This document shows, piece after piece, positions 5,083-41,331 of a stretch of DNA of 41,331 nucleotides. The notes beneath the pieces were generated by a model that ran no database searches, had not been told where the DNA came from, and was given only the letters and a program-made list of their open reading frames with translations. The translations under genes and the position numbers were made by a program. Within the stretch, counting starts at the first letter, position 1. Each line of letters begins with the position of its first letter. Origin of the DNA: a virus. The stretch lies in IMG/VR virus record IMGVR_UViG_3300046010_012266, positions 1 through 41,331 of that record. One strand, given 5' to 3'.

Positions 5083-5090
5083 TATAAATA
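5083..5090 (-). promoter_or_regulatory. Candidate late promoter TATTTATA
   Basis: TATTTATA in the minus direction, 14 nt before the ferritin-like ATG at 5068, in the 52-bp gap that follows the stop of the upstream nuclease-like gene. Confidence 0.35.
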
Positions 5091-17799: not shown

Positions 17800-18459
17800 T
17801 TATGATTGTATTTTAGTAACTGTTATAGGAATGGTTATACGAGCTCCACTGTCTCTTCCTTCAAATATCATACTTGCTTGTATTTGGGTATTAGAACCAA
17901 ATAAAGTATTAATAGTTGTGGCTTTTAAATTAAATGTAGTTCCTACTACAGTTTTAGAAACATTTGTTCCTAATGTTTGATTTGAATTTAAAGCTTCAGC
18001 TTGGGTTGTGTTAATACCTACACCATTAAATGTAGATAGTAATCTAATATCTGAAATAGTTGCAGTATATCCTGAAGATTCATAAACTGATGTGCCTCCT
18101 AAATAATTTAAAGTTTGAGGAGTAATTGCTAATGAAGCTCCTTGTTTTAATACTATTGAAGTATATCCAATGTCTAATATTGGCATTCTAGCAGTACCCC
18201 TGGGTAAAGTGACTAGTTTATATTTCATTATTTGAGTATTTAAAGGAAATGCTTCTAAAAGAGGCATTCCTTCTATTGCTTCTCCAGAATATGATGAACC
18301 TGATGGATGGTCGGGGTTATATAGTGTATAATCTATTTCATCATCAGATAATGCAAATTGAGTAATTCTAAAAGAACCATCATTTTTTGCTAAAAGTTCA
18401 CGGCCTTTGGTAGTTAATATTGCATCTACAGTAACTACAGTATTATTAAGGTATCCCAT
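17800..18459 (-). CDS. Conserved virion structural protein
   Basis: The 219-aa protein starts MGYLNNTVVTVDAILTTKGRE, an N-terminus I recall as conserved in tail-module proteins of T4-like marine phages, and continues with FRITQFALSDDEIDYTLYNP. The C-terminal half is strand-rich with a final ARITIPITVTKIQ. It is placed among large tail proteins. The exact role is unknown. A TATTTATA motif 21 nt upstream suggests that transcription may re-initiate here for the downstream structural genes. Confidence 0.7.
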   Translation of the reverse strand: MGYLNNTVVTVDAILTTKGRELLAKNDGSFRITQFALSDDEIDYTLYNPDHPSGSSYSGEAIEGMPLLEAFPLNTQIMKYKLVTLPRGTARMPILDIGYTSIVLKQGASLAITPQTLNYLGGTSVYESSGYTATISDIRLLSTFNGVGINTTQAEALNSNQTLGTNVSKTVVGTTFNLKATTINTLFGSNTQIQASMIFEGRDSGARITIPITVTKIQS

Positions 18460-18480: not shown

Positions 18481-18488
18481 TATAAATA
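18481..18488 (-). promoter_or_regulatory. Candidate late promoter TATTTATA
   Basis: TATTTATA in the minus direction, 21 nt before the ATG at 18459, in the 32-bp gap to the upstream structural gene. Confidence 0.35.
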
Positions 18489-24612: not shown

Positions 24613-24960
24613 TTATGGTAAATTACTTAAATTATTTTGCAAAGTATTAAATCTTTCATTAGCAGATAATAATTCTCTTCTCAAATCATTTATTTCAGCT
24701 ATCAATGCTTCATATATAGGATCTGTTTCTTCAGGTTTTATATAATCAGTTGATGTTTTAATAAGATATTCATGAGAATTTATATTCCCAAACTGAGGTA
24801 TATTAAAGAATAATTTATTATAATATGAAAAAAATTCCTCTATAGTAGGTAAAGGTTCTTCTAATGGAGGTGGAGAAACTAATTGAGAAAATTTAGTATC
24901 AATAGTATTCTCAAATTGAGTTTTATCATAAACTAATCTATTTAGATTAATATTATCCAT
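24613..24960 (-). CDS. Small tail-module protein
   Basis: A 115-aa acidic protein with a Pro-rich stretch (SPPPLEEPLPTIEEFF) and a C-terminal helix with heptad-like spacing (YEALIAEINDLRRELLSANERFNTLQNNL) that predicts a coiled coil. It overlaps the start of the upstream gene by 8 bp. It is probably a small assembly or linker protein that pairs with the 1247-aa neighbour, but this is inferred only from position and the coiled coil. Confidence 0.7.
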   Translation of the reverse strand: MDNINLNRLVYDKTQFENTIDTKFSQLVSPPPLEEPLPTIEEFFSYYNKLFFNIPQFGNINSHEYLIKTSTDYIKPEETDPIYEALIAEINDLRRELLSANERFNTLQNNLSNLP

Positions 24961-26083
24961 TTACAATTTTAAAATATTGATTATTACTTAATATTATAGT
25001 TGAACCATCTACAACAGTTTTTATTAAAATTTCATAATATCTTTCTTCTTGTAATCCATTCATGTATAAATTAAAATAATTTGATGTAGAATCAGTACTT
25101 ATTTTAGTATAAGTTGTATCAAAATCTACAACAAATTCATTAGTATCTAAATCTTTAATAGCATAATATGAACTTGTAGGTAAAAAATAATTATTTAAAT
25201 ATACAGATGAAGTTTGAAATACTCTAGTAGGATATGTAGGTCTTATATTTATTCTAAATTTTTCAATATTGTTTTTAGGATATTCTTGTTTATTATTAGG
25301 AATGGTAAATACTAATTCTGAAGTATTGATTTCAGAGTATGAAGAACCTGTTGAGAATAAATAATCATCCCATTTAAATTCTAATAATGGAGGATATATA
25401 GTATGAGTATCTCTTGAATAGTATTTCATTTGTATATCATAATATTCATTTGAATTAAATTCAGATGAATTATCTTGTTTTATTAAAAATCCATTATTAT
25501 TAAAAGTACCACTAACCCATGCTTTAATAGTATCTGTAACATTCACATTGATATCCAAATCACTATAATAATCAAAACTTTGAGTTTGAACTATATTTAA
25601 AGATAGATTTGAAGAACCAGTATACCAATTTCCCCCTCCAGGATTAGAAGAAGGGAATGAAGCTGTTATATATGCTCCAAAACTTGAAGTAGCCCATTTA
25701 GTAGAACCAGAAGCTTGGGTATATATCCAACTACATCCATTGGATATTACAGGTAAATCATAAAATTTTCCAGTTCCCATTGCCCATGGATTTGAAATAG
25801 GGTATATATAAAGTATTGTAGTGTTATTTAAACCTTCTATATTAGCTTTAAATAATTTTAAATTTGAATTCCATTGAGAACCAGAAATTTTATTATTAAT
25901 AATATCTGTTATTTCAGTTGAATCAAATTGTATTAATATTCTACTTACTTGTGGGCCAGTATTTGTTAAATCTCCTTCAGGATTTAATGATGTTTCTATA
26001 ATTTCATCTAATCCAGAATTAGATAGAGGACTTATTGAATATATAGTGGCATCCTTAGAAGGAAAAATTTTGTAAACAGCCAT
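24953..26083 (-). CDS. Virion protein with DNRLRE/carbohydrate-binding-like N-terminal region
   Basis: The 376-aa protein begins MAVYKIFPSKDATIYS and continues with a pattern like DNRLRE-type beta domains: RILIQFDSTEI, SNLKLFKANIEG, then paired Trp-containing segments, a DINVNVTDTIKAWVSG segment and GFLIKQDNSSE. These domains often occur on cell-surface or glycan-binding proteins. The C-terminal third is a separate strand-rich unit. It follows the gp6-like gene, so it may be a baseplate component that carries a receptor- or glycan-binding module. Family match by pattern, not proven. Confidence 0.55.
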   Translation of the reverse strand: MAVYKIFPSKDATIYSISPLSNSGLDEIIETSLNPEGDLTNTGPQVSRILIQFDSTEITDIINNKISGSQWNSNLKLFKANIEGLNNTTILYIYPISNPWAMGTGKFYDLPVISNGCSWIYTQASGSTKWATSSFGAYITASFPSSNPGGGNWYTGSSNLSLNIVQTQSFDYYSDLDINVNVTDTIKAWVSGTFNNNGFLIKQDNSSEFNSNEYYDIQMKYYSRDTHTIYPPLLEFKWDDYLFSTGSSYSEINTSELVFTIPNNKQEYPKNNIEKFRINIRPTYPTRVFQTSSVYLNNYFLPTSSYYAIKDLDTNEFVVDFDTTYTKISTDSTSNYFNLYMNGLQEERYYEILIKTVVDGSTIILSNNQYFKIVNG

Positions 26084-26096
26084 TTTTTATTTTGGT

Positions 26097-26104
26097 TATA
26101 AATA
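26097..26104 (-). promoter_or_regulatory. Candidate late promoter TATTTATA
   Basis: TATTTATA in the minus direction, 13 nt before the ATG at 26083, between the gp6-like gene and the next tail gene. Confidence 0.35.
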
Positions 26105-27970: not shown

Positions 27971-28377
27971 TAGCTAAAAGTTAATTCAATATTATCTGTT
28001 ATTCCTCCATTTGTTACACTATACGTTAAATTTATTTTTAATTGATTAGCATCTGGAATAGGGGTTACTAAGAGTTCAAGTATGTTAACTTGAGGAAAGT
28101 ATAATGATATTTGGGAAGATATATTTAATAAAAGATTATCCACATTGTCTTGAGTAAGTTGATTAAATAATTGTGCTCTTAAATTACCACCAAAATTTAA
28201 ATTAAATATTCTTTCATTTTGATTGGTTAAAATAAAATTGATTAAATTATTTTTAATAGTATCTTTAGTAGTATATGTTGTTTTAAATATTGCAGATCCA
28301 TTTAATGGTAAAGCTATTCCTATTCCATTTCTTGCTTGGACTTCTAAAGGATTTTTATTTGGAATTCTTATAGCCAT
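27970..28377 (-). CDS. Baseplate wedge protein, T4 gp25-like
   Basis: The 135-aa protein fits the gp25/lysozyme-like wedge family in size and pattern: a GIALPL strand early on, TTYTTKDTIKNNLINFILTNQNERIFNLNFGGNLRAQLF in the middle (the NERxxNxxFG block is diagnostic), and a C-terminal helix-strand unit DNLLLNISSQISLYFPQVNILELLV. In T4, gp25 sits in the inner baseplate and helps start sheath assembly. Despite the family name it is not expected to be an active lysozyme. Its gene overlaps that of the gp6 homologue. Confidence 0.9.
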   Translation of the reverse strand: MAIRIPNKNPLEVQARNGIGIALPLNGSAIFKTTYTTKDTIKNNLINFILTNQNERIFNLNFGGNLRAQLFNQLTQDNVDNLLLNISSQISLYFPQVNILELLVTPIPDANQLKINLTYSVTNGGITDNIELTFS

Positions 28378-28778
28378 TATTTTATCAATCCCATTATTTG
28401 ATCTAAACTAACTTCACCTGCAGGTAAACTACTACCTTCTGTAGCAGTATTAACATTAACTCCTGGATTAAAGTTATTTAGTGAGTCTGTTGTGTGATTT
28501 GAAAAATTTTTCCAATCACTATTACCAAAGGATTTAGCCGTTTCATTTAATATATCTTTAATAGGATCTCCAGTTGATTGAAATTTAGGTGAAGAATTTA
28601 AATTTATTGGAGAAATCATATGTTCTTTAATTGAAACTTGTGGTGATTTTTTAGGAGTATTATTAGTATGGGTAGAAAGAATTTCTATAAGAGATTCTTT
28701 AATTATTTCTTTAAAATCATCAGCTATAACTTCTTTTACGGCTTCTTTAATAAGTTTTTTAAATTCTAGTTTATTCAT
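28377..28778 (-). CDS. Hypothetical protein with LIKE-type N-terminal peptide inside the baseplate module
   Basis: The 133-aa protein begins MNKLEFKKLIKEAVKEVI, closely matching the N-termini at 6424, 7192 and 36101, with Ile-Lys-Glu at residues 10-12. An amphipathic helix region follows (DFKEIIKESLIEILS), then a Ser/Asn-rich, low-complexity body. Its presence among baseplate genes is unexpected for a head-packaged protein; it might instead be a tail assembly factor. It overlaps the gp25 gene start region and belongs to the same unit. Confidence 0.65.
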   Translation of the reverse strand: MNKLEFKKLIKEAVKEVIADDFKEIIKESLIEILSTHTNNTPKKSPQVSIKEHMISPINLNSSPKFQSTGDPIKDILNETAKSFGNSDWKNFSNHTTDSLNNFNPGVNVNTATEGSSLPAGEVSLDQIMGLIK

Positions 28779-28781
28779 GAT

Positions 28782-28789
28782 TATAAATA
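28782..28789 (-). promoter_or_regulatory. TATTTATA motif close to the ATG at 28778
   Basis: TATTTATA in the minus direction ends only 3 nt before the ATG at 28778. That is too close for a T4-type late promoter to serve this ATG, so it may serve the downstream gp25/gp6 genes or be chance. Confidence 0.2.
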
Positions 28790-30028: not shown

Positions 30029-31255
30029 TTATGTTGTAAAGTTATTTTTAGATTTTATTGAATCTATATTGGTTATAAGATTATCTAAAACAAGTTTTAC
30101 TTCTGCAGATATTAAGTTTAATTGAGTAATAGGAGTTCCTTCTTTTCCGTATGCTAATATAGAACATACTTGCATAAATTCTTGAAGATTTGAAATAAGC
30201 TGTTTTAGTAAATCTGTGGTTTGGTTTCCTAATAGGATAGGTTCAGTAGCTTTAATTGAGCCTAAATATGATTTAGTTGAGTTTACAACAAATATATTTG
30301 TATCTACATTTACAGATTCTATAGATGAAAATCCTACACTTTTTATAGAACTTAATAATATATGATCTAAATTAGAATTTAATAATATTCGTCCTGAATT
30401 TAGGATTATTTGATTATTATTATATTCTTGAGGATCAGTAGGTTTGGTAGAAAAAGAACTATATCTTTTAGATGATACATTAATTGGAATTTTTTGTTTA
30501 GATGTTATATATAGTGAACTTAAATCTTCATTTATGTTTTCTAAAATATTTTCCCAACCATTATTTGATTTAACTCCTTGTCCATTTCGTAAAATAATTA
30601 TAGGATCACCATCATCTCCAAAAGAAGACCATAAATTTTTTATATTAGAATTTTTTACAGTACTTCCTATTCTTATTGAATTTCCCCATCTACCTTCAAA
30701 TATCATATCTCCTTCATATGGAAGAAGAGGATTAATATTTGATTTTTCTTTAAATGTTTGCCCTAAATTTATTCCAGCTTCATTATTTGGAACTATATTT
30801 GGTGAACCTTGTGAAGTTTGAATATAGTTTTTTTGTAAAGATTCAGGAATATTATCTTCATATATGTTATCAGGATAAGCATTATGATGTTGACTATTCC
30901 ATATGTTTAATGGAGTAAAATAATAAGATATTTTACTAACCGTTGATTGATCTATAGATAAATCTGGGAGTAGAAGTAGGTATACTATTTCATTTATTAA
31001 TGGATAATTTTTTATATTAGAAAAAAATGGAAGGGCGTATGGTAACTGTGTTGGTGGTAATGGAGTAGGAGAAGAGACTTGATCATAAAATATAGTTCCT
31101 ATTGAATTCCAACCTCCATATTGTTCAAATAATGGGTGAGAACTATCTAAAATTATATCTTTTACTCTTACTGCAGAATATTGAGGAATAGAAGTTACTG
31201 TAGTTTTAGGATTGGAAACTACTTTTTTTAACCCAGCAAATCCATACCTATACAT
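30029..31255 (-). CDS. Baseplate hub/spike candidate (gp5-like OB-fold region)
   Basis: The 408-aa protein has an N-terminal strand-rich region (YSAVRVKDIILD…) and a segment at about 180-200, DMIFEGRWGNSIRIGSTVK, that matches what I recall of OB-fold baseplate hub proteins (EGRxGNSIRxGS) in T4-like marine phages. IIILRNGQG follows. In T4 the hub gp5 carries this fold plus lysozyme and spike parts; no lysozyme motif or octapeptide spike repeat is seen here, so it may be only the OB part. The gene is next to other baseplate genes. Confidence 0.6.
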   Translation of the reverse strand: MYRYGFAGLKKVVSNPKTTVTSIPQYSAVRVKDIILDSSHPLFEQYGGWNSIGTIFYDQVSSPTPLPPTQLPYALPFFSNIKNYPLINEIVYLLLLPDLSIDQSTVSKISYYFTPLNIWNSQHHNAYPDNIYEDNIPESLQKNYIQTSQGSPNIVPNNEAGINLGQTFKEKSNINPLLPYEGDMIFEGRWGNSIRIGSTVKNSNIKNLWSSFGDDGDPIIILRNGQGVKSNNGWENILENINEDLSSLYITSKQKIPINVSSKRYSSFSTKPTDPQEYNNNQIILNSGRILLNSNLDHILLSSIKSVGFSSIESVNVDTNIFVVNSTKSYLGSIKATEPILLGNQTTDLLKQLISNLQEFMQVCSILAYGKEGTPITQLNLISAEVKLVLDNLITNIDSIKSKNNFTT

Positions 31256-31593
31256 TATTTTTCTTGATTTATTTTATTTATCTCTTCAAGAAGTTGAGCT
31301 TTTTCAGAATCACTTATTATAAAACCTTCTTCTCCATTAGAATTATTTAATAAAGCTCTTTGTACAATTGCGGCCATTTTTATTAACTGTTCATCATTCT
31401 TTACTCCTATTTCTAAATATTCTTTTATTAAAGGAACAATTAATGTAGCATCCCCTATATCATTTATCAAAGGTTTTAATTCAGATATAAGTGTGGATAT
31501 TTGTTTTTCTTTATTTTTAGAATTACTATATATTTCATTTAAAAGTTCAGAAAATGATTTTTTTCCAAAAATTATTTGATCTAGTTGACTCAT
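31255..31593 (-). CDS. Conserved small protein next to the late sigma gene
   Basis: The 112-aa protein is all-helical and acidic: SQLDQIIFGKKSFSELLNEIY, ISTLISELKPLINDIGDATLIVPLIKEYLEIGVKNDEQLIKMAAIVQRAL. I recall similar proteins in the same position beside the sigma-like gene of other large marine phages, but no function. Its stop overlaps the hub-candidate ATG. A TATTTATA motif lies 15 nt before its ATG, so it may be the first gene of the baseplate unit. Confidence 0.7.
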   Translation of the reverse strand: MSQLDQIIFGKKSFSELLNEIYSNSKNKEKQISTLISELKPLINDIGDATLIVPLIKEYLEIGVKNDEQLIKMAAIVQRALLNNSNGEEGFIISDSEKAQLLEEINKINQEK

Positions 31594-31608: not shown

Positions 31609-31616
31609 TATAAATA
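31609..31616 (-). promoter_or_regulatory. Candidate late promoter TATTTATA
   Basis: TATTTATA in the minus direction, 15 nt before the ATG at 31593, in the gap that follows the late sigma gene. It would start transcription of the baseplate genes. Confidence 0.4.
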
Positions 31617-31622
31617 TTAAAT

Positions 31623-32528
31623 TTATTCAAATTTTATATAATTATGCTCTAAATAAAATAAATAATTTCTATTAAAAATATCAGATAATATATTAGCAAC
31701 TTTAGTTATTTTAGGAGTCTTAACATCTATTATTTCTCTAATATAGATGTATAATGCTTTTTTATTAAATATATCAATTGAATCTCTTTTTTTAAATAAT
31801 TGTAAAATAGCATCTGCTATCTGTACTTCTTCCTGAAAGGTAAGTTCCTTTGTTTTTTTATTTATTTTTGGTGGAAAAATATTATATAAATTTTCATCAC
31901 AATATTTTACATATTCATCTATAAAAAAGTATAATTTATCTACACTTTTATCTTTTTCATAAATCAAATTGTGATCTATTTCATTATTTTCTTTTATACT
32001 ATCAACAGAAATTCTATTTTTTCTATTTTTATAATTTTTATCATTATATGAAATAAGCCATCTTTTTGTAATAGTACCAAAATATGAATATGCTTTGGGG
32101 GGAGTAATTTTTCTTAGTCTTTCTTTACACTTGGATGTAATATTTAATGAATCTATAAAACTATCTATTTGATCTTGAGTAACTCTATCTACATCCCCTA
32201 CATATTCTTCAAAATTATCATTATATTCTTCATTAAATTCTTTAGTTATTATTTTAGTGAATCTTTCTTGAATGTTTCTTCGGTGATTATAACGATAAAA
32301 TTTGGAAATTAAAAATATAATTAATTCATGTTGTAAATCTTCAATATTTGTTTCTTCTGTATAGTAGAATTTGAAGGTATGAATAATATTTTGGGTAAGT
32401 TTAAATAATGGATGATGAATTTTTTCTGAGTATATTCTGTTTTTTATCCTAGAATCATCAGTTTTATTATATTCTATAATAGCATTTTCTGTATCTATGG
32501 TAAAGTAATTTTTTGAAGATTTTTTCAT
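31623..32528 (-). CDS. Late-transcription sigma factor, T4 gp55-like
   Basis: The 301-aa protein matches the pattern of phage late sigma factors. It has an acidic/aromatic N-terminus (KNYFTIDTENAIIEYNKTDD), a helical block with IHHPLFKLTQNIIHTFKFYY and NIEDLQHELIIFLISKFYRY (sigma-70 region 2-like), and AYSYFGTITKRWLISYNDKNYKNR, the likely -10 recognition/helix region. It would direct host RNA polymerase to late promoters, probably together with a sliding clamp. Its gene sits just upstream of the tail genes it would activate and has a 4-bp overlap with the gene before it. Confidence 0.75.
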   Translation of the reverse strand: MKKSSKNYFTIDTENAIIEYNKTDDSRIKNRIYSEKIHHPLFKLTQNIIHTFKFYYTEETNIEDLQHELIIFLISKFYRYNHRRNIQERFTKIITKEFNEEYNDNFEEYVGDVDRVTQDQIDSFIDSLNITSKCKERLRKITPPKAYSYFGTITKRWLISYNDKNYKNRKNRISVDSIKENNEIDHNLIYEKDKSVDKLYFFIDEYVKYCDENLYNIFPPKINKKTKELTFQEEVQIADAILQLFKKRDSIDIFNKKALYIYIREIIDVKTPKITKVANILSDIFNRNYLFYLEHNYIKFE

Positions 32529-33876: not shown

Positions 33877-34287
33877 TTAAGATTTAACTGCCAAGCTAAA
33901 GTTAAAAAAATTTTCAAATTCATATAAAATTTGGCATTTTTCATATTCTTCTAACTTCAAAAAATATTCTTTCCCAGCTTTTATAGCAGTTAAACCATCT
34001 TTATTTATATATTTTTTAATAGAATCTAAATGATATTTTTCTTTTAAATCTATTAATTTTAAAAATGAAAAAGCTTTATCATAAATATAATTTATACTTT
34101 TATTTTTTATTTCTATTTCTATTACATCATCTAAACCAAATGTAGATATAGTTTTAGCTGTATTTAAAGTAAAACCTTCTATATTACTTACCATTTTTAT
34201 ATACATTCCTAAACAAAAAATAACTTGATCTGGGGTTAAATTTTCTATCCCCCCTTCAAATGTTTCTTCTTTACGTTTTCTACCCAT
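33877..34287 (-). CDS. Hypothetical helical protein
   Basis: A 136-aa protein with a basic N-terminus (GRKRKEE) and otherwise helical composition: LTPDQVIFCLGMYIKMVSNI, IYDKAFSFLKLIDLKEKY and ILYEFENFFNFSLAV. No known motif. It overlaps the upstream gene by 8 bp, so the two are translated from one message driven by the host-type promoter at 34676-34707. Confidence 0.7.
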   Translation of the reverse strand: MGRKRKEETFEGGIENLTPDQVIFCLGMYIKMVSNIEGFTLNTAKTISTFGLDDVIEIEIKNKSINYIYDKAFSFLKLIDLKEKYHLDSIKKYINKDGLTAIKAGKEYFLKLEEYEKCQILYEFENFFNFSLAVKS

Positions 34288-34660
34288 TTAGTATATGTTT
34301 ATCTAACTCATTTAGACTAGAAATACCATAGATATTAATTTTATCTAAAACATCATTAACATCAATATTCTTTAATAAGAATTCATTCAAAAAATTTGTT
34401 TCTGAATCACTTAATTCTAATTTACCAATATTAAATAGATCAGTAACATCTTCTTCAGTATCTATAATTTTAACAGAATATAAAATATCCTTTAATTTTT
34501 TTAATTCTTCTTCACTTCCAAAATATAATAATGATTTACCATTATAATCTATATCTATTTCATGAATATTTAAATCTCTAATACAATCCAATAAATATTG
34601 TGGAAATAATTCAATAAAATCCCCAACATGGATATTCAATGATATTTTTATTACTTTCAT
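34280..34660 (-). CDS. Hypothetical small alpha/beta protein
   Basis: I start this gene at the ATG at 34660 (MKVIKISLNIHVGDF) because a longer in-frame start at 34717 would lie upstream of the promoter -7 box at 34676-34683 and inside the terminator. The 126-aa product has a strand-helix-strand beginning (VIKISLNI, IELFPQYLLDCIRDLN, IHEIDIDYNGKSLLYFG) and a helical, acidic end. No family recognised. The promoter leaves a leader of only about 10 nt. Confidence 0.7.
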   Translation of the reverse strand: MKVIKISLNIHVGDFIELFPQYLLDCIRDLNIHEIDIDYNGKSLLYFGSEEELKKLKDILYSVKIIDTEEDVTDLFNIGKLELSDSETNFLNEFLLKNIDVNDVLDKINIYGISSLNELDKHILNG

Positions 34661-34675
34661 AATTTTTAATTTTGA

Positions 34676-34707
34676 TAAAAATACGTAAAATATTTTAGAT
34701 TTCCAAA
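34676..34707 (-). promoter_or_regulatory. Bacteroidota-type promoter (TTTG-N20-TATTTTTA)
   Basis: In the minus direction TTTG (34707-34704), exactly 20 nt, then TATTTTTA (34683-34676). This fits the Bacteroidota -33/-7 consensus TTTG…TAnnTTTG with A at the last base. It precedes the ATG at 34660. Confidence 0.75.
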
Positions 34708-34715
34708 TTTTTAAC

Positions 34716-34739
34716 AAAAAAAGCCAATCTAAGATTGGC
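34716..34739 (-). terminator. Intrinsic terminator (minus direction)
   Basis: GCCAATC, a 3-nt loop and GATTGGC form a perfect 7-bp stem (34723-34739), followed in the minus direction by a run of seven T (34722-34716). It ends the unit of genes at 34767-36531 and lies directly before the promoter at 34676. Confidence 0.85.
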
Positions 34740-34766
34740 CTTTATTTAAATTTAATATTAATTATA

Positions 34767-35186
34767 TTATTTTCTATTTTCCCTAAAAATAGCTCCAGAT
34801 GCAGCTCCAGTTTTACTTTTACCAGTTAATTTATCCTCAAGATCTTTACCTGGTCTTTTATCTAAATCAGCTATTAAAGTGTTTAATTCATTTTCATCTT
34901 TAACTGCATTAATTTTATTTAGCCAAGCTCCTTTAAGTTTAGTATTGGCACCACTTATTGCTTTACTTAAAACATCTTTTTTTGCTTTAAAATCTGAAGC
35001 TTTATCTATATTTCCTTTTATTTTATTCCAAGTTGTGGTTTGACCAAATAAACCTTCATTTACTTCTTCTTCTTCTATTACTTCAAGAATTAATTCTTTA
35101 ATAATTCCGCGAAGTTTTGATTCATTTTGCATTGATTTCATTTTTTTCTGCAATGTTTCTTCAATTATTTTATTTACATTTTTCAT
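34767..35186 (-). CDS. Hypothetical basic protein with internal IKE/ILE motifs
   Basis: The 139-aa protein has a helical, acidic N-terminal third (SKLRGIIKELILEVIEEEEVNEG) that includes Ile-Lys-Glu and Ile-Leu-Glu steps. A basic, Ala/Lys/Gly-rich body follows (AISGANTKLKGAWLNKI) with a flexible C-terminus (TGAASGAIFRENRK). If cut by a prohead-type protease after residue ~40 it would release a basic core, like T4 internal proteins. It is last before the terminator at 34716-34739. Confidence 0.65.
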   Translation of the reverse strand: MKNVNKIIEETLQKKMKSMQNESKLRGIIKELILEVIEEEEVNEGLFGQTTTWNKIKGNIDKASDFKAKKDVLSKAISGANTKLKGAWLNKINAVKDENELNTLIADLDKRPGKDLEDKLTGKSKTGAASGAIFRENRK

Positions 35187-35206
35187 TTTGTATGATATTA
35201 TTTTAT

Positions 35207-35214
35207 TATAAATA
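35207..35214 (-). promoter_or_regulatory. Candidate late promoter TATTTATA
   Basis: TATTTATA in the minus direction, 20 nt before the ATG at 35186. Confidence 0.35.
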
Positions 35215-35242
35215 CATTAGTCTTTAAAAAGAATTAAATTGT

Positions 35243-35539
35243 TTAATAAATAACGTTTTTTCTATTATTAATATAATTTTTTACATATTCATATGCTTCT
35301 CGTTTATCATCTTCATTTCCGGTTTTAGCTCTTCTCATAGCAAAATCTAAACCTCTAACATCCTCAGTCCCTGTAGTTTTTAATACATCTAATACATTTT
35401 TATAAGTTAATTCATACTTATAAAATTCATATACATCTTTAATAAAATCAAGCAATTCACTAGGAATTAAACTATTAGCATTTAATTCACTTTCATACAT
35501 AACTTCTCTAATGATTTCTTTTAATTGGGATCTAGTCAT
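35243..35539 (-). CDS. Small protein with IRE-type N-terminal peptide
   Basis: A 98-aa protein beginning MTRSQLKEIIREVMYE, with Ile-Arg-Glu at residues 10-12, of the same class as MKxxEFKxLIKE. The rest is a compact helical domain (LLDFIKDVYEFYKYEL, VLDVLKTTGTEDVRGLDFAMRRAK, AYEYVKNYINNR). No enzyme motif. Two bases separate it from its upstream neighbour, which carries the same peptide type. Confidence 0.65.
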   Translation of the reverse strand: MTRSQLKEIIREVMYESELNANSLIPSELLDFIKDVYEFYKYELTYKNVLDVLKTTGTEDVRGLDFAMRRAKTGNEDDKREAYEYVKNYINNRKNVIY

Positions 35540-35540
35540 T

Positions 35541-36101
35541 TTAATTTTTAATTATATCATAATATGGCTCATCAGGTTCACTTGTATTTAATTTTACTAA
35601 ATCTTTTAATTCTTTCATTAAATCTGATGGTAATTCTTGGTAATTTCTATAAATTAAATACTTCCTACCTGGAAATGCTGTTCCTCTATATTCTTTTATT
35701 TTATACATCATTGGATTAATACCTACTTTATCTAAAATAGCTTTAACTTGATCTTCTGGGGTTTGATTTTCTTTTAATGATTGGGTTTTTTCTTTAGCAA
35801 TTATTTTATCATCAATAAGTTTTAAATCACGTTTAATAGGATTTAATTTAACCTTAGTTAAAATACCTACTATTTTCCCAGTTGCAGGATAAAATTCACC
35901 CTTAAATTCAGGATCATGTTTTTTAATAATAGACATTACTTTATCTTTATTAGTTTCTAAACTACCACCATCCACAACTAAACGAATTTTTATTAAACCT
36001 ACGGATTTATTAGCTCGTTTACTTAATCCACTTTCTTCATTTTCTTTAAGAATTTTACTAATTTCTTCGCGGATTAGTTTACGAAATTCTATGATTTTCA
36101 T
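35541..36101 (-). CDS. Hypothetical protein with LIRE-type N-terminal peptide
   Basis: The 186-aa protein starts MKIIEFRKLIREEISKIL (Ile-Arg-Glu at residues 10-12), followed by a linker and two alpha/beta segments: SVGLIKIRLVVDGG…NKDKVMSIIKKHDP…GKIVGILTKVKL, which suggest a ferredoxin-like unit, and a C-terminal segment with AILDKVGINPMMYKIKEYRG. No function recognised. It is one of four consecutive genes with Leu/Ile-x-Glu-type N-termini. Confidence 0.65.
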   Translation of the reverse strand: MKIIEFRKLIREEISKILKENEESGLSKRANKSVGLIKIRLVVDGGSLETNKDKVMSIIKKHDPEFKGEFYPATGKIVGILTKVKLNPIKRDLKLIDDKIIAKEKTQSLKENQTPEDQVKAILDKVGINPMMYKIKEYRGTAFPGRKYLIYRNYQELPSDLMKELKDLVKLNTSEPDEPYYDIIKN

Positions 36102-36102
36102 T

Positions 36103-36531
36103 TTATTTAAGTTTATTAATTAAATTTTTAGCGATAGTTTTTTTATCATTTATAGATTTCTTAGATTCCCTAAAATCATTCATTAACTCTTCAACCTCTT
36201 TCAAATCCATGTCTCTCTGTTTCAATAACCCAGTTGCAATCCTATTAGCATCGCTTTTCTGTTTATATATACCTAAAATACTATTTGATTTTAATCCACC
36301 TTTTATCATTAAACCAAACCCAAACATATCAGTTTCAAATAATATATCTTCTTTAACAGAATTTTTAGTAGGTTTAACTACAACCCAAAATTCACCAATT
36401 TCATCAACTAAATCTTCATTTTTTGATACTTCATCGGTAGGTTGTTCTTCGATTGGTTGTTCACCGATAGGTTCTTTACCCTCAGTAAATAAATGTCTAA
36501 ATCTCCAATTAGATATATTAAATTCTTCCAT
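36103..36531 (-). CDS. Hypothetical protein with possible FTE-type leader
   Basis: The 142-aa protein begins with FNISNWRFRHLFTEGK, a leader ending Leu-Phe-Thr-Glu, then a Pro/Glu/Gln-rich spacer (GEQPIEEQPTDEV), a globular part (EIGEFWVVVKPTKNSVKEDILFETDMFGFGLMIKGG) and a helical end. The Phe-Thr-Glu step departs from the Leu/Ile-x-Glu rule, so its membership of the leader family is tentative. A TATTTATA motif lies 13 nt before the ATG; this is the first gene of the four-gene unit. Confidence 0.6.
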   Translation of the reverse strand: MEEFNISNWRFRHLFTEGKEPIGEQPIEEQPTDEVSKNEDLVDEIGEFWVVVKPTKNSVKEDILFETDMFGFGLMIKGGLKSNSILGIYKQKSDANRIATGLLKQRDMDLKEVEELMNDFRESKKSINDKKTIAKNLINKLK

Positions 36532-36544
36532 TTTAATGTTTTCA

Positions 36545-36552
36545 TATAAATA
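36545..36552. promoter_or_regulatory. Candidate late promoter between divergent genes
   Basis: The octamer reads TATTTATA towards the gene at 36531 (minus) and TATAAATA, the T4 late consensus, towards the Hc1-like gene (plus). It could serve either gene. It lies 13 nt from the minus-strand ATG and about 30 nt from the plus-strand ATG. Confidence 0.4.
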
Positions 36553-36588
36553 TGCGTATTTATTAGAAAATAAATAAAATAAATGTTT

Positions 36589-36759
36589 ATGACAACAAAT
36601 GAATTAATCACAAAAATGGAAGAAGTGTTTAACACACTTAAAACCGAACAAGCTAAAGTTACAAAGAAAGCCAAAAACAATGCCAGAAAATCTTCAACCG
36701 AGTTGAGAAAATTATTGGTAGAGTTTAAAAAAGCATCTTTGGCAGAATCAAAACAATAA
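36589..36759 (+). CDS. Histone H1 (Hc1)-like small DNA-binding protein
   Basis: A 56-aa plus-strand gene: MTTNELITKMEEVFNTL, then a Lys-rich stretch (QAKVTKKAKNNARKSS) and ELRKLLVEFKKASLAESK. Length, helix-basic-helix arrangement and the KAxxxARKxxxELRKL pattern resemble the short Hc1 histone-like proteins of Bacteroidota. An ATG six bases earlier (36583) would add Met-Phe. It would coat or bend phage or host DNA. It is the only convincing plus-strand gene of the window. A strong terminator follows 26 nt after the stop. Confidence 0.7.
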   Translation: MTTNELITKMEEVFNTLKTEQAKVTKKAKNNARKSSTELRKLLVEFKKASLAESKQ

Positions 36760-36785
36760 ACAAAAATGTTTAAAAAAAAGAAAAA

Positions 36786-36810
36786 GGGTACAGCATGTAC
36801 CCTCTTTTTT
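36786..36810 (+). terminator. Intrinsic terminator after the Hc1-like gene
   Basis: GGGTACA, a 3-nt loop and TGTACCC form a perfect 7-bp stem (36786-36802), followed by TCTTTTTTT. It ends transcription of the plus-strand gene. A-rich bases before the stem could give weaker function in the minus direction. Confidence 0.85.
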
Positions 36811-36903
36811 TCACCCTCTACTATATATATTTGTATATACCCTTAGGTATATATAAATTTTACCCTACTTATAAAAACACATCCCTTTATATATTCACCC
36901 AAA

Positions 36904-36981
36904 ATGGCTATAGTGAAAAAGAAATACCTTGTGGGAGACACCTATGGTGGATATGTTGGGTTTGAATATTTTTGGTTTTAA
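36904..36981 (+). CDS. Possible 25-aa micro-ORF
   Basis: ATG to TAA encoding MAIVKKKYLVGD followed by a Gly/Tyr/Phe/Trp-rich end. It begins with a basic segment and ends in aromatic residues, a plausible membrane-interacting peptide. There is no recognisable promoter, and the surrounding DNA is non-coding, so chance is quite possible. Confidence 0.2.
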   Translation: MAIVKKKYLVGDTYGGYVGFEYFWF

Positions 36982-37278
36982 TACTGGGATTAATATGTAA
37001 AGTATATAGATATATATCCTATCGACATGTTTTGTGTTAAAAAAATTTTGGTTAAAAACCTAATGTATTAAATATGTGTGTGGTTATGGGATGTAATAGA
37101 TGTGTGGTAGATGTGTGTGTGTGTGTGGTAGGGATATAAGTATATATTGTCGAGGGGCATATATAGTTATAACTTATACTTTTAATCTACTTTCCTATAT
37201 ACTACCCGCCACCCATATATTGACAGTAACGCGCGTGGGAGTAATATTATATTATACCATATATATATGCATAACTTA

Positions 37279-37356
37279 TTTACACCATAAAGTATACAAC
37301 ATGTTATTAACATAATATAAACGTTATTAACAATGGTCTATTTCTTTACACCATAA
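37279..37356 (+). repeat. Two pairs of direct repeats (iteron-like)
   Basis: TTTACACCATAA occurs at 37279-37290 and 37345-37356. GTTATTAACA occurs at 37303-37312 and 37323-37332, between them. The nested arrangement (A-B-B-A) in the non-coding region is typical of protein-binding sites such as iterons or operators. Confidence 0.5.
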
Positions 37357-37386
37357 TGCATGCATCAAAAGAACAATTGCTTATAT

Positions 37387-37414
37387 AAAAGTAAGGCCCA
37401 CATTTTAGTGGGCC
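37387..37414 (-). terminator. Intrinsic terminator after the AT-hook gene
   Basis: In the minus direction GGCCCAC, a 6-nt loop and GTGGGCC form a perfect 7-bp GC-rich stem (37395-37414), followed by TTACTTTT. It lies 23 nt after the stop of the AT-hook gene. Confidence 0.8.
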
Positions 37415-37437
37415 AAACTTTTCAAATTAAAACAACA

Positions 37438-37851
37438 TTAAGCAACATGTACAATTTCTTGATCAACTTGTTTTTTAGGTCTACCTCTTTTTAACAAACC
37501 AGCTTGTTTTTTAGCCATTAAATCTTTTAACCTAATTTGTCTAACACTATTTTCATCTACAGGTCTACCTTTTTTTAATATACCTGCTTCTTTTTTAGCA
37601 TTTAATTCTTTAAGTCGCTTTTGTCTTTCACTATCTTCTACTACTGGTCTACCTCTTTTTACATCACCTTTTAATTCTCTAGTTTTTAATCTTTGTTGTC
37701 TAACGCTGTTTTCATCTATTGGTCTACCACGTTTTACTTCTTTTTTAACAGTTAAATTGTTAATCATTTCTTCAAGTAATACACTTTTAATAGTGCTTGC
37801 TTTTTCAATTCCTAATTCTTTTGCTTTTGCTAATAATTCTTGTCTGTTCAT
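37438..37851 (-). CDS. AT-hook repeat DNA-binding protein
   Basis: The 137-aa protein has four AT-hook-like cores: RGRP at 41-44 and 66-69, KGRP at 94-97 and RGRP at 122-125, each within a repeat of 25-28 residues of the form K-R-G-R-P-[IV]-D-E-N-S-V-R-Q-x-R-L. The linker between cores is itself conserved, so the unit looks like a true tandem repeat. The N-terminus (ELLAKAKELGIEKASTIKSVLLEEMI) fits a SAP/HeH-like helix-loop-helix. Such a protein should bind the minor groove of AT-rich DNA at several sites. It has its own host-type promoter and terminator. Confidence 0.8.
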   Translation of the reverse strand: MNRQELLAKAKELGIEKASTIKSVLLEEMINNLTVKKEVKRGRPIDENSVRQQRLKTRELKGDVKRGRPVVEDSERQKRLKELNAKKEAGILKKGRPVDENSVRQIRLKDLMAKKQAGLLKRGRPKKQVDQEIVHVA

Positions 37852-37893
37852 AATGTTGTTGTTTTAATTGTTTAATTATTTAATTTCTTGATA

Positions 37894-37925
37894 TAAAGAT
37901 AATATAAATTTTTATACTTGCCAAA
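37894..37925 (-). promoter_or_regulatory. Bacteroidota-type promoter (TTTG-N20-TATCTTTA)
   Basis: TTTG (37925-37922), 20 nt, TATCTTTA (37901-37894) in the minus direction. It drives the AT-hook gene. The following transcript start region shares TCAAGAAATTAAATAATTAAA with the promoter at 38901-38932. Confidence 0.8.
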
Positions 37926-37945
37926 TATTTTGTGGTAAACAAATA

Positions 37946-38107
37946 TTAAAGTATTAATGCTTGAAATATAATACTTAATGTACCTAAAACAACCCATATA
38001 AAGGCTACTACCACTGTAATATTTTCGCCTTCTCGAATGGCATTTTTTAAAGATATTAATCCCGCTAAAGTAAATAAACTAATAATAATCAACACAAATA
38101 TTCCCAT
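37946..38107 (-). CDS. Small two-helix membrane protein
   Basis: A 53-aa gene too short for usual ORF cut-offs. It has two hydrophobic helices, IFVLIIISLFTLAGLISL (3-20) and ITVVVAFIWVVLGTLSIIF (30-48), joined by a short charged loop (KNAIREGEN). It should span the membrane twice. It is the third gene of a small operon that starts with the coiled-coil microprotein. Its stop is 21 nt from the upstream promoter box of the AT-hook unit. Confidence 0.6.
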   Translation of the reverse strand: MGIFVLIIISLFTLAGLISLKNAIREGENITVVVAFIWVVLGTLSIIFQALIL

Positions 38108-38127
38108 AATTTATTTTGTTAAATTGT

Positions 38128-38220
38128 TTATACTGATTTTGGTTTTATTCCTGTATTTCCTTCCCCTTGTTCTATATGAACAGGTTGAAATGGTTTTGGA
38201 TCGTAATTGATTGGTTTCAT
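38128..38220 (-). CDS. 30-aa microprotein
   Basis: ATG to TAA: MKPINYDPKPFQPVHIEQGE followed by GNTGIKPKSV. Pro-rich and without predicted structure. It begins only 3 nt after the stop of the coiled-coil microprotein and has the same orientation, so it is in the same operon. Coding status is supported by spacing and clean start/stop, not by any homology. Confidence 0.45.
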   Translation of the reverse strand: MKPINYDPKPFQPVHIEQGEGNTGIKPKSV

Positions 38221-38223
38221 AAA

Positions 38224-38352
38224 TTATCTACCTCCAGATGCTAATTCTTTTATCTCAGCTCTTAATTTTTTATTTTGGATCTTTAATTTATCTACTTCAT
38301 TACGTAGTTCTAGGATCATTTGTAAATAATAATCTATTTCTTTTTGTTTCAT
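38224..38352 (-). CDS. 42-aa coiled-coil microprotein
   Basis: ATG to TAA: a single long helix with leucine/isoleucine heptads (YYLQMILELRNEVDKLKIQN, then KKLRAEIKELASGGR), typical of a short dimeric or trimeric coiled coil. It is the first gene after a strong host-type promoter and has the AATTAAAACGAAACG leader seen at other early genes. It may be a regulator or an assembly factor. Confidence 0.6.
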   Translation of the reverse strand: MKQKEIDYYLQMILELRNEVDKLKIQNKKLRAEIKELASGGR

Positions 38353-38377
38353 AATCGTTTCGTTTTAATTTCTGACA

Positions 38378-38409
38378 TAAATGTACTATTATTTTTTATA
38401 CTTGCCAAA
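38378..38409 (-). promoter_or_regulatory. Bacteroidota-type promoter (TTTG-N20-TACATTTA)
   Basis: TTTG (38409-38406), 20 nt, TACATTTA (38385-38378) in the minus direction. It drives the three-microprotein operon at 38352-37946. Confidence 0.8.
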
Positions 38410-38429
38410 TGCTTTGTGGTAAAAAGATA

Positions 38430-38681
38430 TTAATTATAAAATGAATAAAATCCTAATTGTACATTCATTGTGTATATTTCTATTGAAACTACTTCCATAT
38501 CTAAAGATATTGAAGAATTATTCCATTCATCATCAAACATATAATCTTCACCATATTGTAAAATACTTTTATTAACTAATAATTGAAATAATATTTCAAA
38601 CTTACATAACATTTCATACAACTCAATTTGTTGTTTGGGTGTTAGTATTTTGAATTCAATTTTGTTGCTCATGTTATTCAT
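38430..38681 (-). CDS. Hypothetical small acidic protein
   Basis: An 83-aa protein, or 80 aa if the second ATG at 38672 is used. It has a helical first half (LTPKQQIELYEMLCKFEILFQLLV) and a strand-rich acidic second half (DDEWNNSSISLDMEVVSIEIY). No known family. The leader AATTAAAACAAATAG resembles leaders of other early genes here. It follows the 51-aa gene by 30 bp and is probably co-transcribed with it. Confidence 0.6.
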   Translation of the reverse strand: MNNMSNKIEFKILTPKQQIELYEMLCKFEILFQLLVNKSILQYGEDYMFDDEWNNSSISLDMEVVSIEIYTMNVQLGFYSFYN

Positions 38682-38711
38682 AACTATTTGTTTTAATTGT
38701 TTATGTTTTTT

Positions 38712-38867
38712 TTAGAATTGAATATAATCAATAGCTAATATACCTGTTGGTTTTCCATCAAGAGTTAATTCATAATTAGGGTCCATTCCTGTTAATATAA
38801 TATCATCTATTAACTGTTGGATGGTGTTAAATTTGTTTGTGTAGTAATTACATTTTAAGCTGTACAT
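38712..38867 (-). CDS. 51-aa hypothetical protein
   Basis: ATG to TAA: MYSLKCNYYTNKFNTIQQLI, then DDIILTGMDPNYELTLDGKP and a short tail TGILAIDYIQF. The pattern suggests a small alpha/beta fold with a final beta strand. It is the first gene after the host-type promoter at 38901-38932, with leader AATTAAAACTCAAAATT. Confidence 0.55.
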   Translation of the reverse strand: MYSLKCNYYTNKFNTIQQLIDDIILTGMDPNYELTLDGKPTGILAIDYIQF

Positions 38868-38900
38868 AATTTTGAGTTTTAATTATTTAATTTCTTGATA

Positions 38901-38932
38901 TAAATGTACTAACAATATTTTTAATCTCCAAA
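38901..38932 (-). promoter_or_regulatory. Bacteroidota-type promoter (TTTG-N20-TACATTTA)
   Basis: TTTG (38932-38929), 20 nt, TACATTTA (38908-38901) in the minus direction. Its TTTG is formed by the end of the T-run of the terminator at 38930-38972, so terminator and promoter overlap. Confidence 0.8.
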
Positions 38933-38972
38933 AAAAAAAACACCTGTAATGTCTTTTTAACACTACAGGTGT
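38930..38972 (-). terminator. Intrinsic terminator after the DUF932 gene
   Basis: ACACCTGTA and TACAGGTGT form a perfect 9-bp stem (38940-38948 with 38964-38972), followed in the minus direction by a run of eleven T (38940-38930). It lies 20 nt after the stop of the DUF932 gene. Confidence 0.85.
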
Positions 38973-38991
38973 ATTTCAGAAATTAAAACAA

Positions 38992-39792
38992 CTATTGAAC
39001 AAAAGTTTCAGCCAATTGATATAACTCAGCGTTTAGTTTTATATCTTGGTTAAAGTTTTTGATTTTTCTTGCTTTACGCATTTTTGAACCATAATTAAAC
39101 ATTCCGTTAATTATTTTTTCTTGAATACGATTGTAAACACTCCACAAATCATTACCTTTATCTTCATTTCTAATAGGTTCTACTAATGAATCAAGGTCAA
39201 AAGTATGTGAAGGTATGTTTTTAATTTCATCACCCAAACGTATTTCAAGAGCTTTCATAGCAAAATCTTTTATTTGTTCCATTTCCAATTGAATCGTTTT
39301 GAATTTGTTCATTGATTCAACTGTTAATGGAAGTTTTTCTACCATGTTTGTAATTACTTTTCTTAACTCTTCAAAATCATAACCCATGTGACGAATTTTC
39401 ATGTCTTCAAATTCCTCGGTTTTAATTACTAGACCATTTTCACAAACTAACCTAAATAATCCTGCGGTAAAAGTAAATGCATTTTTTCCATCACTGGAAT
39501 TGGTTAAGAGGATTTGTGGATAAGCATCATCACCATCTTCACCTTTAATCATTACATCGGGATTTCTAAATACTACAAGGTGTTTTTGAAAACCTACATT
39601 TTTTCTTGCTTTGACTTGTTTTGCATCTACTACGTTCCATCCTAATAATTCCATATCTTCAATGACTTGATAGGTAGGAATGTGGGTGTACTTTTCAGAT
39701 GTTATTTCTGCTCCTTTGGTTGCAAAAATACTTGGTGCTAATTCTTTGATTTCGGATTTGGTTTTGTAACCTTCATTTTTTAATTCTAACAT
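38992..39792 (-). CDS. DUF932-family protein
   Basis: The 266-aa protein fits the DUF932 family found on plasmids and phages: SEKYTHIPTYQVIEDMELLGWNV near the N-terminus, then QKHLVVFRNPDV, PQILLTNSSDGKNAFTFTAGLFRLVCENGLVI (the most diagnostic block) and a long helical C-terminus with NDLWSVYNRIQEKIINGMF. The function of DUF932 is not established. It has its own host-type promoter and a strong terminator, so it forms a single-gene early unit. Confidence 0.85.
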   Translation of the reverse strand: MLELKNEGYKTKSEIKELAPSIFATKGAEITSEKYTHIPTYQVIEDMELLGWNVVDAKQVKARKNVGFQKHLVVFRNPDVMIKGEDGDDAYPQILLTNSSDGKNAFTFTAGLFRLVCENGLVIKTEEFEDMKIRHMGYDFEELRKVITNMVEKLPLTVESMNKFKTIQLEMEQIKDFAMKALEIRLGDEIKNIPSHTFDLDSLVEPIRNEDKGNDLWSVYNRIQEKIINGMFNYGSKMRKARKIKNFNQDIKLNAELYQLAETFVQ

Positions 39793-39818
39793 AGCTTTTT
39801 TGTTTTAAATTTCTGAGG

Positions 39819-39850
39819 TAAATATAATGATAGTTTTTTAAATTTCCAAA
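39819..39850 (-). promoter_or_regulatory. Bacteroidota-type promoter (TTTG-N20-TATATTTA)
   Basis: TTTG (39850-39847), 20 nt, TATATTTA (39826-39819) in the minus direction. It drives the DUF932 gene. The leader has TCAGAAATTTAAAAC. Confidence 0.8.
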
Positions 39851-39869
39851 TATTTGTAGTAAAAAAGCA

Positions 39870-40274
39870 TTAAAATGATTGTTCGTAAGGTATAAATTCT
39901 TTTTCCATTATTTTGTTTTTAACAATTTCAATTAATTTAGTTAAACAAGCAAGTTCTGCTTCTTCGTATGTATGAAAATATGCTGCATATTGAGTTGAAG
40001 TATGCTCACCTGATAATACCCAACAAAATGTAGATTTATTACCTAATTCCATTGTTATCCAAGAACACAATCCATACTTCTCTCTAAACCATCTAAAGGC
40101 TTGTTGATAAAGTGGTGCTAAGATATAATCAAATTCTTGTGCATTTTCTTGATTTTTGCATTCTTCTATTCTTAACAGAATGTGCTTTAAATCATGTTTT
40201 GCTAAACAAGGCTCATCAAATCCTAACTCTTTAAGAGCTAATGCTTCGGTATAATTCACAAACTCTTTTTCCAT
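39870..40274 (-). CDS. Conserved phage protein of a tandem family, 3' end fused to the start of a lost copy
   Basis: The 134-aa protein reads EFVNYTEALALKELGFDEPC, then a body containing YQQAFRWFREKYGLCSWI and EEAELACLTKLIEIVK. I recall this type from phages of Bacteroidota, where related copies occur in tandem. Its last 12 residues MEKEFIPYEQSF nearly repeat its own first residues MEKEFVNYTEA. At the DNA level about 42 bp around the end (39898-39939) match the bases around its start (40264-40307). The simplest reading is that the stop after KLIEIVK was lost and the frame runs into the first codons of a deleted downstream copy. Function unknown. Confidence 0.75.
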   Translation of the reverse strand: MEKEFVNYTEALALKELGFDEPCLAKHDLKHILLRIEECKNQENAQEFDYILAPLYQQAFRWFREKYGLCSWITMELGNKSTFCWVLSGEHTSTQYAAYFHTYEEAELACLTKLIEIVKNKIMEKEFIPYEQSF

Positions 40275-40306
40275 TATTTTTTTCTTTTAACAATTTCAAT
40301 TAATTT
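40274..40306 (-). pseudogene. Remnant 3' end of an upstream tandem paralogue
   Basis: The 33 bases before the gene at 40274 encode KLIEIVKRKK followed by TAA that overlaps the ATG (TAATG). This equals the C-terminal KLIEIVK of that gene, so it is the tail of a lost upstream copy. No more of that copy is visible. Confidence 0.7.
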
Positions 40307-40424
40307 AAATTTTTTGTAGATTTGGTTGATTATCCAACACCGCCACGTGGAGGCATCTACTTGGTGTCACGGGCTTCGTTGCTACTTTGCTGTTATCGGC
40401 CGATTCAGTTTTTTCGCCATTCAT
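40305..40424 (-). CDS. Possible 39-aa protein of higher GC content
   Basis: ATG to TAA with a Lys/Thr/Ser-rich product (MNGEKTESADNSKVATKPV, then TPSRCLHVAVLDNQP). Base composition is clearly less AT-rich than neighbouring genes. It ends at the junction with the paralogue remnant, so the frame may have been cut short by that deletion. No homology recognised; coding status is uncertain. Confidence 0.35.
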   Translation of the reverse strand: MNGEKTESADNSKVATKPVTPSRCLHVAVLDNQPNLQKI

Positions 40425-40477
40425 GTTTTTTATTATAGTGTGTATCCCCTACTTCACCCAATTGGATACCAACACTT
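40425..40477. other. Structured spacer with inverted repeat
   Basis: In the minus direction GTATCC and GGATAC lie about 17 nt apart just after the CCA end of the first tRNA-like unit, followed by TATAAT-like bases. It may be a processing hairpin or part of the leader of the small ORF at 40424. Confidence 0.3.
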
Positions 40478-40480
40478 TGG

Positions 40481-40586
40481 TAGTCAGGACAGGATTCGAA
40501 CCTGCATTAAGCTACATATTGAGTGGGTGTCAACTTAATGTCTTCCAATCAATCATCACTCTACCGATAGCTTCCGCCACCTGACT
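40481..40586 (-). tRNA. Class-II-like tRNA or tRNA-like element, isotype unclear
   Basis: The 5' AGTCAGG and 3' CCTGACT give a perfect 7-bp acceptor stem. The T arm is GCAGG-TTCGAAT-CCTGT, and an encoded CCA follows (40480-40478). The D-arm start TGGCGGAA matches the leucine-like unit downstream. The middle is unusual: the unit is 106 nt, I find no clean 5-bp anticodon stem (best alternatives place GGA or TTG as anticodon, both with mismatches), and CATTAAG/CTTAATG form a 7-bp arm with a nested TTGA/TCAA stem where the variable arm should be. It may be degenerate, interrupted, or a tRNA mimic. Confidence 0.6.
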
Positions 40587-40587
40587 A

Positions 40588-40815
40588 TATTTGCCCCAAA
40601 TGAGATTACTTTGAGGACTAGATTTTAGCTGGTTTCCTTGCTATTTGAGTAACCAATTACTGTCTTACCAGATTTAAACCCGTCAACCATTACTTGGGGA
40701 GGGCATGGTTTTGCGCTCTTATTCCCAATGAGTTCTTTTGTAAAACCTAAGAACCAGCAGCTATAACTTGTGTTAAGGTCAAGTTACCATCACTATAAGT
40801 ATCTCTTACTTATTG
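40588..40815. other. 228-bp spacer between tRNA-like units
   Basis: No complete gene is seen. A minus-strand frame of about 50 codons without stop (…GFTKELIGNKSAKPCPPQV, then MVDGFKSGKTVIGYSNSKET) has its only ATG near the end, leaving 21 codons. The bases are less AT-rich than average. A remnant of a coding gene or a structured RNA are both possible. Confidence 0.35.
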
Positions 40816-40899
40816 TAGTCAGGACAGGATTCGAACCTGTAACAGCACTTACGTCAATCCCCTATATGGTTCAGCGTCTACCAATTCCGCCACCTGACT
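40816..40899 (-). tRNA. tRNA, leucine-like class II, anticodon atypical
   Basis: An 84-nt unit with perfect acceptor (AGTCAGG/CCTGACT) and T arm (ACAGG-TTCGAAT-CCTGT), D arm GCGGAATTGGTAGACGC as in tRNA-Leu, and a class-II variable arm. CCA is not encoded. By normal numbering the anticodon stem is GAACC/GGATT with one A-A mismatch and loop ATATAGG, giving AUA as anticodon. That reads a Tyr codon and conflicts with the Leu-like body. The promoter at 40926 lies just upstream. Confidence 0.75.
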
Positions 40900-40925
40900 A
40901 ATTAAAAGAACTTCTTTTGATGACC

Positions 40926-40957
40926 TAAAGATACGACTTAGAATCCTGTTAGGCAAC
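40926..40957 (-). promoter_or_regulatory. Bacteroidota-type promoter before the tRNA (GTTG-N20-TATCTTTA)
   Basis: GTTG (40957-40954), 20 nt, TATCTTTA (40933-40926) in the minus direction, the same spacing as the five TTTG promoters. The expected start is about 20 nt before the tRNA at 40899. Confidence 0.65.
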
Positions 40958-41306: not shown

Positions 41307-41331
41307 TAGTCAGGACAGGATTCGAACCTGT
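41307..41331 (-). tRNA. 3' end of a third tRNA with the same acceptor and T arm (cut by window edge)
   Basis: The last 25 bases are identical to the 3' end of the tRNA at 40816-40899: the T arm ACAGG-TTCGAAT-CCTGT followed by CCTGACTA. The rest lies outside the window, so the isotype is unknown. CCA is not encoded. Confidence 0.7.

Follow-up and report, generated by a model that had tools for sequence, protein, structure and literature searches.

The early promoters of phage T4 are extended, strengthened versions of host promoters (PMC2988021), and its late promoters are recognised by gp55 (PMC2988021, PMC2988020). In Bacteroidota, the primary sigma factor (sigma-ABfr) reads promoters of the form TTTG / TAnnTTTG. 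In Flavobacterium johnsoniae this promoter has near-invariant T-12, A-11, T-8, T-7, T-6 and G-5 and a weak -33 element (PMC6847099), the F. psychrophilum motifs SM1-3 vary around TAnnTTTG (PMC9723704), and the spacer of Bacteroides thetaiotaomicron promoters is variable in length (PMC7366714). Here we analysed the IMG/VR contig IMGVR_UViG_3300046010_012266 (the window: the whole stretch of 41,331 bases, with 26% guanine plus cytosine (GC) and nearly all genes on the minus strand), in which an initial annotation had singled out six promoter-like sites at 34.7-41 kb, each made of TTG, a spacer of exactly 20 nucleotides (nt; N20) and TAnnTTTA. These sites are probably early-class promoters of a Bacteroidota T4-type myovirus, whose early set would be read by the host RNA polymerase and whose late set, marked by the motif TATTTATA, would be read through a gp55-like sigma factor. 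All six were found where they had been placed, on the minus strand and between genes:

34676-34707, minus strand: predicted early-class promoter TTTGG-N19-TATTTTTA, 15 nt before the ATG of 34280-34660; heads the unit that holds the late-sigma candidate.
37894-37925, minus strand: predicted early-class promoter TTTGG-N19-TATCTTTA, 42 nt before the ATG of 37438-37851.
38378-38409, minus strand: predicted early-class promoter TTTGG-N19-TACATTTA, 25 nt before the ATG of 38224-38352.
38901-38932, minus strand: predicted early-class promoter TTTGG-N19-TACATTTA, 33 nt before the ATG of 38712-38867.
39819-39850, minus strand: predicted early-class promoter TTTGG-N19-TATATTTA, 26 nt before the ATG of the DUF932 gene, where it is conserved in relatives.
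40926-40957, minus strand: predicted early-class promoter GTTG-N20-TATCTTTA, before a tRNA-like gene; top matrix score in the window.

The first five sites of the list have the form TTTGG-N19-TAnnTTTA and the sixth has GTTG, as described earlier. That all of them lie just upstream of a minus-strand start is correct for the five that precede an ATG, the exception being 40926, which precedes the tRNA-like gene at 40815-40899. The common start region TCA(A)GAAATTAAA was recovered at 37894, 38378 and 38901, and with one extra T at 39819.

At a spacing of 20, the minus strand of the window holds eight TTG/TAnnTTTA pairs, six of which have their -7 box between genes; the remaining spacings between 5 and 40 give means of 1.4 pairs, and of 0.17 pairs whose -7 box is intergenic. 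The initial annotation had named its own counter-check, namely coding DNA as dense in the motif as the DNA upstream of genes; what was found is six of eight pairs between genes in a window that is only 5% intergenic by the gene set used. The excess at this spacing (Poisson P ~3e-8) is post hoc, since the spacing had been chosen from the same data, and for this reason a matrix was derived from relatives, trained on 193 sites of related contigs with the window and two near-identical contigs left out. By this matrix all six sites rank in the top nine of ~82,000 window positions and, together with one further match, they are the seven best intergenic positions of the window:

37386-37417, minus strand: seventh exact match, TTTGG-N19-TACTTTTA, absent from the initial list and with no gene start close downstream.

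By matrix score this seventh match is on a par with the six listed sites. Its spacer forms a strong hairpin directly behind gene 37438-37851 (the GGCCCAC/GTGGGCC terminator of that gene, z -5.0), so that 37386 is terminator-like and only possibly a promoter; it may be a combined terminator-promoter. Such a match speaks for the idea that the motif as a whole is a chance or terminator-related pattern of AT-rich intergenic DNA and marks no promoters, which is nonetheless highly improbable given that the sites are close to gene starts, conserved before orthologous genes across divergent phages, and strand-biased.

The window represents 41 kb of the genome of a T4-type myovirus whose closest cultured relative is Flavobacterium phage vB_FspM_immuto_2-6A (Immutovirus, NC_055915; 160 kb, host Flavobacterium sp. 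LMO8), hereafter immuto. It encodes a T4-type baseplate wedge protein, a NadR-like protein, a ferredoxin and a DUF932 protein arranged as in immuto, the gene order of the two being the same; the compared proteins are 39-47% identical, with 47% identity over 100% for the baseplate wedge. The DUF932 gene is annotated as follows:

38992-39792, minus strand: DUF932 protein, 266 amino acids (aa); Pfam PF06067, E 7.7e-30; 45% identity to immuto gp159.

Another baseplate match at similar identity belongs to a Microcystis phage, so that the baseplate gene alone is insufficient to settle the host. The window as a whole is kin to immuto in protein identities and gene order, and the assignment to Bacteroidota, which the initial annotation had drawn from the promoter motif, therefore stands on evidence independent of it. 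No DNA-level match of the window to known phages was obtained, an Rfam search returned no match, and DUF932 was not detected in bacterial genomes by tblastn.

The motif recurs throughout this lineage. Most DUF932-homologue loci carry [TCG]TTG-N20-TATATTTA, or a close variant, shortly before the DUF932 gene. The plus strand of immuto has 35 TTG-N20-TAnnTTTA sites, whereas no other spacing between 15 and 25 gives more than 8; the majority of the 35 fall in a cluster of small genes at 60-76 kb, where they are often followed by the leader GGTATCAATAATTAAAAC, which in the window reads TATCAAGAAATTAAA. The -33 element of immuto is mostly GTTG(C), that of the window TTTGG. A MotA-like reading of the immuto TTGCTT, after the T4 protein, was set aside, as the box lies ~5 bases further upstream than in T4. 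Two further relatives, G014 and G013, have 27 and 12 upstream sites at N20 and almost none at other spacings. Early-class sites in immuto and G014 cluster at many small non-structural genes and are largely absent before structural genes, and in some relatives they precede tRNAs. In the publications found by our literature search, which is no proof of absence, the promoters of this phage lineage were not described.

These counts also bear on whether the sites might be ordinary host sigma-A promoters whose final A reflects AT-rich composition and no special class, a suggestion that the GC content of the window and the frequency of TAnnTTTA in it (111 on the minus strand) would favour. Among the IMG/VR relatives L009-L130, however, the last base at N20 is A in 126 of 136 sites (4 C, 3 G, 3 T), with at most 5 sites at other spacings, and immuto, with 35% GC, still has 35 A and 1 G at N20 on its plus strand. 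Low-GC Flavobacteriales hosts likewise keep G boxes at least as numerous as A boxes in their upstream regions (52 and 41), in a sample that is small and whose spacing signal is weak, with no clear peak; upstream regions were counted because whole-genome counts of the TTTG form at exactly 20 nt were uninformative for these hosts. On this evidence an origin in composition is improbable and was already disfavoured.

The claim that the six promoters match the host sigma consensus has to be amended. The sites share with the sigma-ABfr promoter the TT(T)G near -33, the TAnnTTT core of the -7 box and the range of distances between the two elements, but all six have A at -5, where the host has a nearly invariant G, and they combine a strong -33 element with a spacing of exactly 20 nt, which in the host is variable; they are thus not the host consensus. 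Among the Bacteroidales upstream regions that we sampled, boxes at 19/20 nt have G in 80 cases and A in 15. Unrelated Flavobacterium phages are split, phage 11b having mainly G-type boxes (14 G, 2 A) and phage FCL-2 both A and G boxes; the A-type box is therefore not unique to the lineage of the window, and its combination with a rigid 20-nt -33 element is.

This departure could also mean that the sites form a distinct, middle-type specificity class, read well only after an injected or early phage factor has altered sigma-A or the polymerase, with A-5 separating phage from host promoters. The near-invariance of A-5 in the lineage where the host has G, the spacing, rigid in the phage and variable in the host, and the G-type boxes of phage 11b all agree with such a class. 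Against it, the -33 element is located where host sigma region 4 would bind and has the host TTG, the remainder of the -7 box is host-like, and FCL-2 carries both box types; we regard this alternative as rather unlikely, and early-class promoters read by the host enzyme as the preferred interpretation.

Terminators are found next to the promoters and, in relatives, inside them. Two adjoin promoters of the window:

38926-38985, minus strand: intrinsic terminator for the DUF932 gene (z -5.6), abutting the promoter at 38901, with its U-tract running into TTTGG.
34709-34744, minus strand: intrinsic terminator for gene 34767-35186 (z -2.65), immediately ahead of the promoter at 34676.

A hairpin in the spacer is absent from five of the six sites of the window, a weak fold being seen at 40926. 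Among 34 immuto sites, 9 carry a hairpin of -9 kcal/mol or lower in the region from about -45 to about -13; the 5' arm of 7 of these hairpins includes the -33 TTG, and a T-rich stretch follows. Hairpins reaching -8 kcal/mol were counted in 18 of 77 sites of immuto and G014 and in 7 of 174 Bacteroidales promoters (P ~9e-6). Terminator hairpins around the -33 box were likewise noted at immuto 22-76 kb (L212, L131) and in G014, for example AAAAGAGTTGC-loop-GCAGCTCTTTT before TATCTTTA; roughly one early promoter in four of the relatives has such a hairpin. It is tentatively proposed, as a possibility that we hold for doubtful, that the lineage has split promoter recognition from that of its host at one base (A for G at -5) and by a rigid 20-nt spacer, so that a phage-altered polymerase could favour phage over host genes, and that the upstream terminator is often folded round the -33 box as a compact terminate-and-restart element.

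A second motif partitions the genome. Upstream of the structural genes of immuto, 17 copies of the 8-mer TATTTATA were counted where 0.15 would be expected, and in the window the motif was found at eight places:

36545-36552, minus strand: late-type TATTTATA, before 36103-36531.
35207-35214, minus strand: late-type TATTTATA, before 34767-35186.
31609-31616, minus strand: late-type TATTTATA, before 31255-31593.
28782-28789, minus strand: late-type TATTTATA, before 28377-28778.
26097-26104, minus strand: late-type TATTTATA, before 24953-26083, next to the baseplate wedge gene.
18481-18488, minus strand: late-type TATTTATA, before 17800-18459.
5083-5090, minus strand: late-type TATTTATA, before 4523-5068.
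1562-1569, minus strand: late-type TATTTATA, before 928-1551.

The whole of 34.7-41 kb had been marked as early, a description that does not survive as one block, because TATTTATA precedes 34767-35186 and 36103-36531 and no early motif stands before the genes of 34767-36531; moreover, the 34676 promoter faces away from the block and into 34660-31623. Compared with the initial annotation, the early block has a smaller extent and different boundaries.

The unit below the 34676 promoter also includes a phosphohydrolase gene and the following candidate:

31623-32528, minus strand: candidate gp55-like late sigma factor of 301 aa, encoded downstream of 34676.

Among its 27 aligned homologues, 15 match Pfam Sigma70_r2 and 7 match phrog_234, 'late sigma transcription factor', all weakly. 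The AlphaFold2 model of 31623-32528 (predicted local distance difference test, pLDDT, 83) has sigma factors as its leading structural matches, though within the range of unrelated helical models; Foldseek gave no match for it at E<=0.001, and a PDB sequence search with the sigma alignment gave none. Pfam sigma region 4 (PF08281) had no match in ten phage records, and a multisubunit RNA polymerase was not detected in ten related phage records or in the window; a search for the phage-type single-subunit RNA polymerase (PF00940) also had no match, but its control matched nowhere, making it uninformative. The immuto equivalent, gp118, is likewise below an early promoter, at 76.2 kb, and in many relatives the phosphohydrolase-sigma unit is preceded, at a comparable position, by an early-type site, TTGG-N19-TATATTTA. 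Upstream of this unit in L101, L102, L077, L082, L079 and others, TATTTATA overlaps the early -7 box or the spacer at a constant distance from TTG (12 or 25 nt), which suggests that the sigma unit is served by dual promoters, active both early and late. The protein of the window contains an insertion of ~55-60 aa in the conserved FDPxxGAKAYSYF region that is absent from most homologues; it is present in the near-identical contig L067, and L095/L096, L023 and L039 are also longer there.

The best reading of these data is a T4-style early/late programme rebuilt on a Bacteroidota promoter. The early class would be a tightened phage form of the host sigma-A promoter, composed of TTG(G), exactly 20 nt after TTG, TAtaTTTA, a conserved A-rich leader and ATG; as infection begins, it would most likely be read by the host RNA polymerase carrying the primary sigma factor. 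Each early site would serve one or a few small genes or tRNAs, with a terminator often preceding, and in relatives overlapping, the promoter. The 34676 promoter would head the unit encoding the gp55-like late sigma, which would then drive transcription from the TATTTATA promoters before structural genes. Like T4 early promoters, the sites resemble strengthened copies of host promoters that precede numerous small genes in a large myovirus and form clusters apart from the structural genes; they differ in being built on the promoter of Bacteroidota and not of E. coli, in the terminators that sometimes overlap them, and in that the starts are here predicted from sequence. The late class resembles that of T4 in its second short A/T motif without a -33 box before structural genes and in the small sigma-region-2-like protein; its motif is TATTTATA and not the TATAAATA of T4 late promoters, and the homology to gp55 is weak. 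In immuto, the gene order, both motifs and the position of the sigma-like gene are alike.

Several observations weigh against this programme. Host sigma-A may recognise the sites poorly, given that they carry A in place of the near-invariant G-5 of the host, and sequence does not separate early from middle timing. In immuto, early-class sites also lie near structural genes at 90.6, 106.2, 114.0 and 149.7 kb, and some TATTTATA motifs sit within the early region. The sigma matches of the phage records are below the Pfam curated cut-off, and 31623-32528 itself has no sigma match.

Other features of the region were recorded, among them the gene behind the 40926 promoter:

40815-40899, minus strand: tRNA-like gene, called Tyr(ata) by ARAGORN, with a D-arm that reads like class II tRNA-Leu.

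Three stretches, at 40479-40590, 40815-40899 and 41307-41331, have TAGTCAGGACAGGATTCGAACCTG and tRNA arms in common, the first with a long extra stretch; ARAGORN detects only the second, and its Tyr(ata) call is odd for a Leu-like D-arm. A plus-strand open reading frame (ORF) at 36583-36759 encodes 58 aa, lysine-rich and by eye like small histone H1-like proteins, with no Pfam match, and divergent TATTTAT motifs lie between it and 36531. At 36800-37440, ~600 bases without convincing genes contain short repeats and have a more mixed base composition than elsewhere in the window.

The transcription programmes of phages infecting Bacteroidota are little studied, though these bacteria dominate guts and many waters. 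The two-class promoter map, with early TTG-N20-TATATTTA, late TATTTATA and a sigma candidate, covers a broad group of phages, uncultured but for immuto, and its motifs can help host assignment and gene orientation in metagenomic contigs; the one-base difference from the host raises a direct biochemical question, namely how the phage competes for the polymerase.

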